From positions 1 to 47,093 of the forward strand of contig CANPYZ010000016.1 of NCBI GenBank assembly GCA_947589035.1: DNA of 47,093 bases, read 5' to 3'. Within the stretch, counting starts at the first letter, position 1; each line of letters begins with the position of its first letter. The translations under genes were made by a program, and so were the position numbers. The stretch is from an uncultured Clostridia bacterium (GTDB lineage: Bacteria; Bacillota; Clostridia; Oscillospirales; Ruminococcaceae). Shown here in pieces: positions 1 to 294 of this stretch. The notes beneath the pieces were generated by a model. It ran no database searches. It saw only the letters and a program-made list of their open reading frames with translations, and was not told where the DNA came from.

Positions 1-56
1 GACAGACAGACAGACAGACAGACAGACAGACAGACAGACAGACAGACAGACAGACA
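1..56 (+). repeat. (GACA)14 tetranucleotide tract
   Basis: There are fourteen perfect GACA units, running off the left edge, so the true number may be larger. Read from base 1 the tract encodes Asp-Arg-Gln-Thr repeats. A four-base unit changes reading frame with each gain or loss. A shorter degenerate copy in the same context lies at 13202-13221. Confidence 0.95.
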
Positions 57-294
57 TGACCTAATTATGCCCATTTTTCAATTAAATACGTTAATTAAGC
101 TGTTTCTTAAACGGTGCATTTTTGCGTGTGAAGAGACGGCTTTTTTATATGCAAATTTAAATTTTAGAAAGGGGTTTTTCGATGAAAACCAGAAAGTTAC
201 TCGCCGGAATTATGGCTTTAGCACTTGTTTGTGCTGTTCCGGTCAATCTCTCTCCGGCTGTAAAGGATTTCAGCATTACGGTTCATGCCGTTGA
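1..294 (+). CDS. Repeat-containing leader ORF, 5' end outside window
   Basis: This frame is open from the window edge through the GACA tract (DRQT repeats), then DRHDLIMPIF, and stops at 292-294, overlapping the LRR gene that starts at 182 by 113 bases in another frame. Its start lies outside the window. The DRHDLxxPxF stretch matches the 31-residue leader ORF at 13181-13276 codon for codon in register, which suggests it is translated. The part after about residue 35 is probably only incidental read-through. I do not recognise a function; a leader peptide is the inference. Confidence 0.35.
   Translation, partial: DRQTDRQTDRQTDRQTDRHDLIMPIFQLNTLIKLFLKRCIFACEETAFLYANLNFRKGFFDENQKVTRRNYGFSTCLCCSGQSLSGCKGFQHYGSCR
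97..146 (+). terminator. Leader hairpin with U-tract (putative attenuator)
   Basis: Bases 97-108 pair with 131-142, allowing two G-U pairs. A smaller inner stem (115-118 with 123-126) closes on a TTTT loop. Six T follow the stem's GGC (141-146). It begins 42 bases after the GACA tract, almost the same spacing as in the second copy (43), and lies 36 bases upstream of the LRR start codon. It has the form of an intrinsic terminator in a 5' leader. Attenuation is inferred. Confidence 0.5.

Follow-up and report, generated by a model that had tools for sequence, protein, structure and literature searches.

The question raised by this locus is why a pure tract of GACA repeats, followed by a terminator-like hairpin, should stand directly ahead of a gene for a surface leucine-rich repeat (LRR) protein, and whether the number of repeats could decide if that gene is transcribed. 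The answer to which sequence comparison leads is that the element is quite probably a phase-variable, translation-dependent transcription attenuator ahead of surface genes. Positions given without further label are those of the window, which is the whole stretch of 47,093 nucleotides that was analysed, and n denotes the number of repeat units. The features around the tract are as follows:

1..56, + strand: (GACA)14 tract, 100% pure, cut by the contig end
57..64, + strand: TGACCTAA, the leader stop site right after the tract
1..294, + strand: leader reading frame at n = 2 mod 3, if the start lies 21 nt ahead of the tract as it does in other copies; it crosses the hairpin and overlaps the LRR start in another frame
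65..96, + strand: linker of 32 nt from tract to hairpin, conserved in the copies of the same genome
97..146, + strand: terminator-like hairpin with T6 (stem-loop 97-142, six T at 141-146)
167..174, + strand: probable ribosome binding site of the LRR gene, GAAAGGGG, as read from the sequence
182..2698, + strand: surface LRR gene, BspA-type LRR_5 with an LPQTG anchor (Pfam)

The main parts of this anatomy had been described in the original prediction and are found where they were placed: the tract at 1-56, TGA at 57-59 and TAA at 62-64 in the two frames that stop directly after it, frame 1 open from base 1 to a stop ending at 294 and so through the hairpin with its six T, and downstream the LPQTG LRR gene, in which Pfam finds both the BspA-type LRR and the LPXTG anchor. 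What needs amending is the repeat number, since 14 pure units are indeed present but base 1 of the window is the first base of contig C16, which begins inside the tract, and 14 is a lower bound (true n at least 14). The same cut places the leader start codon and the promoters outside the window, and the open frame 1 does not reveal the true phase of this copy. TGA 57-59 would be the immediate leader stop at n = 0 mod 3, 37 nt before the hairpin, and TAA 62-64 that at n = 1 mod 3, 32 nt before it. The hairpin has a minimum free energy of −21.3 kcal/mol against a shuffle mean of −11.19 (z −3.89), with one of 200 shuffles as stable or more so, and at least one two-sided change is seen in 8 of its 16 consensus pairs across nine copies. 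The linker at 65-96 can also be made out in two further genomes of the genus. The LRR gene is presumed to be the controlled gene; its ORF starts at 182, past the tract and in a frame different from the tract's open frame, so the window copy is not of the phase-variable-ORF type. A reaching leader, which would run over the LRR start as far as 294, could disturb, lower or couple initiation there.

The proposed course of events begins with a transcript from an upstream promoter, P1, that would carry a Shine-Dalgarno (SD) sequence and an ATG, at which ribosomes would begin a leader peptide that includes (GACA)n. By altering n, slippage would change the frame of the ribosome at the end of the tract. 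Two of the three exit frames of the window copy hold the immediate TGA or TAA, which would let the hairpin form and transcription end before the LRR gene; in the third the ribosome would enter the hairpin, block it and allow the surface gene to be transcribed. Three steps of this scheme are inferred: termination at the hairpin, its relief by translation, and variation of n among cells.

Control of a terminator by leader translation is the principle of trp-type attenuation (as outlined in the accessible part of PMC3894217), from which the cassette differs in having no run of sensing codons, and in that control would come from mutation of the repeat number, not from stalling. An ordinary sensing leader, with a ribosome stalling on codons or on a metabolite and the repeat number incidental, would share the classical attenuator layout of leader ORF and terminator, yet seems to us very improbable. 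The tract reads in every frame as rotating D-R-Q-T (Asp-Arg-Gln-Thr), with stop codons in none and, in the window tract, no run of codons for a regulated amino acid; pure runs range from 2 to 36 units among the 78 tracts with both flanks; many of the targets look like surface proteins and point to no biosynthetic pathway; and Rfam 15 at gathering score gave no match over the cassettes in seven sources (in the window it found just a tRNA).

The missing half of the window copy can be read from other copies in its own genome. Over 105 to 130 bases the query has a match in six 3' flanks (C1, C16, C34, C40, C41, C61), and six 5' flanks (C1, C3, C40, C41, C60, C65) agree without a mismatch. Three copies are complete, C1 with n=9, C40 with n=4 and C41 with n=8; the remaining three 5' and three 3' flanks stop at contig borders within the tract (C3, C16, C34, C60, C61, C65). 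Switches of this kind can thus be hidden in draft assemblies, where, as here, contigs break off within a GACA tract. C65 also carries a variant with n=13, whose flanks differ and whose hairpin is weaker (−9.2 kcal/mol). The complete copies are laid out as P1 (TTGACA-17-TATAAT), about 35 nt, AAAAGGGG, TTGACAAGGTC, ATG and six more codons, and then the tract, TGACCTAA, linker, hairpin and gene. Apart from the C65 variant, the ATG lies seven codons, 21 nt, before the tract where an own-genome copy has its 5' flank. At n = 0 or 1 mod 3 the leader of the own-genome copies stops at once. At n = 2 mod 3 it meets a TGA at +35 in C41, C40 and C61, some 5 nt short of the main stem, runs in C1 into the 5' arm of the hairpin, and passes in the window copy and C34 right through it. 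As assembled, C41 (n=8) is predicted to be reaching and C1 (n=9) and C40 (n=4) stopped, C40 being scored as between by the script, which calls its hairpin earlier (25 nt), though its leader stops at once. C40 and C41 are 100% identical over the spacer and 40 upstream bases and 98% over the linker and carry 4 and 8 units respectively, a difference between paralogues, as are all repeat-number differences here, with one genome per species.

Which 5' flank belongs to the window, that of C3, C60 or C65, was considered, and a sortase gene adjoins the C65 flank; the window is joined to none of them because LPQTG genes stand on at least two of the three contig-end 3' flanks, the gene on the third being cut. 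The sortase gene (L015 2842-3357, on C65) lies just upstream of the 5' flank and is a possible neighbour of an LPQTG LRR gene. Within the genus the exact tract occurs in 3 of 38 genomes, our own, G010 and G061, and the search of related genomes that had been suggested as a check finds that both relatives carry it in the same cassette. A loose 19-base pattern that matched 18 of the 38 was set aside, its reversed control being about equal outside our own genome.

A wider scan, with one genome per species, used the pattern GGGTTGACA, 18-40 nt and three GACA units, and gave at least 109 matching stretches; among the 80 matches listed, by title, the hosts are mostly Lachnospiraceae, Oscillospiraceae/Ruminococcus, Christensenellaceae and other Clostridia. 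Two cultured strains, Ruminococcus bicirculans 80/3 and Dorea sp. D27, are among the carriers. The scan loci, together with ten own or genus loci, were reduced by script to 116 distinct cassettes. The pattern imposes the GGG, a −35 and three repeats, and leaves free the start codon, the −10, the upstream A-run, P1, the linker and the hairpin. Among these free features an ATG is present in 98 of 116 spacers (shuffle mean 46.4, maximum 64), and an ATG, GTG or TTG precedes the tract in 114 of 116 cassettes. The ATG shifts by several bases from cassette to cassette, behaviour that suits a start codon spaced from an SD better than it does a promoter motif of fixed position. From the first ATG to the tract an in-frame stop occurs in 4 of 98 leaders, as against 75 and 46 of 98 in the other two frames, the count in the +1 frame being raised by ATGA. 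Similarly, in 28 loci the −10 of a second promoter-like element, P2, has TAA at positions 3-5, and in none of the 28 does this TAA fall in the leader frame. Such avoidance of in-frame stops is the strongest sign that the leader may well be translated. Ahead of the GGG an A-run and a G are conserved, and P1 matches at 10 or more of 12 positions in 64 of 114 cassettes (shuffle mean 4.7, maximum 11). Neither the ATG-to-tract distance mod 3 (39/34/25) nor n mod 3 (29/21/28 of the 78 tracts, for 0/1/2) is biased, which is expected and is not positive evidence.

P2 itself is well formed: among the 116 cassettes position 2 of its −10 is always A (100%) and position 6 is T in 98%, the spacing is 16-18 nt (17 in 87 of 116), and in 89 of 116 the −10 and the tract are 2-5 nt apart. 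A sigma70-like P2 overlies the leader initiation region in L009, L012 and L013 (C1, C40 and C41) and in most of L086-L194. A transcript from P2 would begin within the repeat and lack the leader start codon, and the attenuator model leaves P2 unexplained. Pairing of the SD with the linker as a regulatory RNA stem, though striking at first sight, was dropped, since own pairs (mean 14.25) stay within the range of permuted loci (mean 13.72, maximum 14.66); pairing of the ATG region was dropped likewise (11.05, 10.59 and 11.29 respectively). One cassette contig, of the pair L109/L128, is labelled Muribaculaceae and has a front end almost identical to that of its partner, labelled Blautia; it is probably a binning error in a metagenome-assembled genome.

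For the frame logic the 76 of 116 cassettes with at least 150 nt downstream free of N were sorted, giving 57 with leader and terminator, 8 with the tract within a gene and 11 with neither; by eye six of the eight tract-in-gene calls are convincing (L087, L101, L111, L140, L145, L172) and two, L144 and L147, are not. In the 57 the terminator begins a median of 44 nt past the tract (quartiles 39 and 52). A frame was called OFF if its stop lies 28 nt or more ahead of the hairpin, a limit taken from S. gallolyticus strains, and ON if at most 12 nt before it, a limit of our own choosing. Both a reaching and a far-stopping exit frame are found in 49 of the 57 loci, with shuffled linkers giving a mean of 30.9 and a maximum of 39 in 200 shuffles. 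With one linker per 60%-identity group, 38 of 45 are switchable against 24.4 expected, a number reached in none of 500 shuffles, and at least one ON frame is present in 45 of 45 groups against 39.8 expected, reached in 2 of 500; the shuffle controls leave shared ancestry in place. As assembled, 36 of the 57 alleles are ON, 17 OFF, 2 between, and 2 lack a called start. A possible second, proximal terminator, made of the tract end, a GTCTGTC-like stretch and a T-run, is seen in 14 of 56 loci (0.26 in shuffles); the subgroup includes L186, L152, L178 and L190, and the window copy is outside it.

The scan presupposes the 5' end of the cassette, and a second sample left the upstream side free: across 394 members of the order, four and a half GACA units followed by TTTT within 8-30 nt were sought. 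Seven genomes match, our own included (the backwards pattern matches 4), and from each of the six others one locus could be read on its 5' side. In every one of these an open start codon is present, a terminator follows at 46-73 nt from the tract, and exit frames of both kinds occur; five are new loci, and the sixth, L272, is apparently the same as scan locus L131. TTGACA is present in four and absent in two. As two of these six unbiased loci lack TTGACA and all have the start codon, the leader would appear to be the core of the element and P2 a frequent extra. The idea of a slippage-controlled leader-peptide attenuator, as originally predicted, is in this way supported by comparison, through the conserved start (114/116), the avoidance of in-frame stops, the constrained spacing of the hairpin, the frame logic (49/57) and the unbiased loci (6/6), alongside the anatomy and the hairpin covariation, all of which can be read in the DNA itself.

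Were the tract instead the initially transcribed region of P2, it could be an untranslated 5' repeat on the model of Moraxella uspA2, its n tuning transcription or the stability of the mRNA with no leader peptide involved. The good −10 at 16-18 nt, so close to the tract in most cassettes, is what such an arrangement would have, but it leaves the start codon ahead of the tract, and the avoidance of stops there, without a reason, the two unbiased loci without TTGACA keep their open start codon all the same, and the tract-in-gene loci need a start upstream of the tract; we regard it as unlikely. Returning to the translated leader, a more inclusive picture is possible, and is offered tentatively: a portable clostridial module of P1, SD, P2, start codon and GACA tract, placed either before a terminator (the attenuator form) or into a gene (the coding form), with P2 kept compatible with the leader frame. 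P2 might then synchronise RNA polymerase with the ribosome, or make an untranslated, always-terminated short RNA from the repeat. The sigma-dependent pause known from phage and E. coli is an example of the former role, and would here fall just after the SD and ATG have been transcribed. In the six tract-in-gene loci the front end of promoter, SD, ATG and GACA is fused directly to the gene, read from the translations as an acyltransferase or membrane protein, and repeat number would switch translation of the gene itself.

Downstream of the cassettes, 39 of 67 first ORFs are signal-peptide-like by a simple heuristic, against 34 of 213 other ORFs of the same loci, the length limits of the two sets differing (80 and 200 aa). 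Among 60 proteins compared with Pfam, namely 59 of these 67 and the window gene, the families found include the Listeria-Bacteroides repeat (7), LRR_5 (6), Acyl_transf_3 (6), LPXTG anchor (3), Cna_B (2) and SLH (2). In distribution the cassette is patchy, and with a match in our own genome only in an even sample of the class (1 of 393) it is not claimed to be common. In 13 of 15 cassette-bearing genomes a single tract explains the match counts, and viral contigs gave one matching stretch. Such patchiness (1/393 in the class and, with a looser pattern, 7/394 in the order), and the six 3' flanks and one diverged copy in one genome, would suit a spreading repeat element, or a terminator of the upstream gene with a microsatellite, having no regulatory role. 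Against this, dissimilar linkers share a frame logic beyond that of shuffles, the cassettes precede signal-peptide-like genes above background and the hairpin covaries, and we hold a non-regulatory origin to be very unlikely.

The diverged copy lies some 13 kb into the window, and between it and the first cassette, at 2875-13072, large surface genes of the LRR, dockerin and Cthe_2159 types are clustered. Its parts are:

13109-13310, + strand: diverged cassette as a whole
13109..13137, + strand: promoter P1, TTGACA-17-TATAAT, read from the sequence
13160-13169, + strand: Shine-Dalgarno-like AAAAAAGGGG
13170-13175, + strand: TTGACA of P2
13193-13198, + strand: −10-like TACACT
13181..13276, + strand: complete leader ORF, MEICYTYDRQTDRHDLNTPFFKLKYFHSAVL and stop, ending inside the 5' arm of the hairpin
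13202..13221, + strand: decayed tract (three GACA, GATA, GACA)
13264..13310, + strand: terminator-like hairpin, −28.8 kcal/mol, with T4 at its end
13463..15535, + strand: LRR-dockerin gene behind the cassette

With its tract decayed and its leader open into the hairpin arm it is plausibly a locked-ON derivative, an open leader being expected by chance in one case in three.

Tetranucleotide slippage as such is familiar from the phase-variable genes of the Haemophilus type, in which it switches the reading frame and GACA is among the repeat units. There the tract lies in the gene; the window tract lies outside the surface gene, and only the tract-in-gene loci of the scan are alike. In Moraxella catarrhalis the 5' UTR of uspA2, a surface gene, contains a repeat whose four-base unit is a rotation of GACA. 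To our knowledge a leader ORF and terminator have not been described for uspA2; in the clostridial cassette both are conserved.

The closest counterpart is the pil1 locus of Streptococcus gallolyticus, where leader attenuation switched by GCAGA repeats has been demonstrated (Danne et al. 2014, PMC3894217). In the accessible part of that paper the evidence consists of start-codon and terminator mutants and of chloramphenicol, with pil3 reported as a second case, and mutation showed the low state with a stop 28 nt or more ahead of the terminator and the high state with one 4 nt before or inside it. As far as this text goes, pil1 and pil3 share with the cassette a repeat that is not a multiple of three in a leader ORF with RBS and ATG, and a terminator before a surface gene; there too the exit frame settles if the leader ends well short of the hairpin, 39 or 49 nt being given for pil1, or at or in it, the window copy having 37 or 32 nt unless the leader passes through. 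The differences lie in the unit, GCAGA there and GACA here, and in the clostridial host, the presence of up to several copies per genome and the conserved linker. Also unlike pil1 and pil3, the cassette has the promoter-like P2 between SD and tract, and its front end is also fused to coding genes; the mapped pil1 start is upstream of the repeats, and the accessible text describes no second promoter over the leader start (PMC3894217). By strong analogy the clostridial cassette may be taken to work like pil1, the likeness being one of architecture, as repeat unit and host class differ. In the open-access literature, with subscription papers mostly outside it, repeat-switched leader attenuation was met only for S. 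gallolyticus pili and a description of the clostridial cassette was not found; the accessible text of a 2025 review of phase variation (PMC11868660) likewise gave no hit to the terms leader peptide, attenuation and gallolyticus. With its second promoter-like element in the leader initiation region, and at times several copies in one genome, the clostridial cassette is apparently undescribed.

If the attenuator reading is true, such bacteria would have a general route to diversify their surface, present in many clostridial genomes and often ahead of secreted or cell-wall proteins. As ON and OFF are predictable from n mod 3, long reads from communities would be a direct read-out of the predicted expression states, and contig ends falling inside the tracts, as in this genome, would explain why such switches get overlooked.
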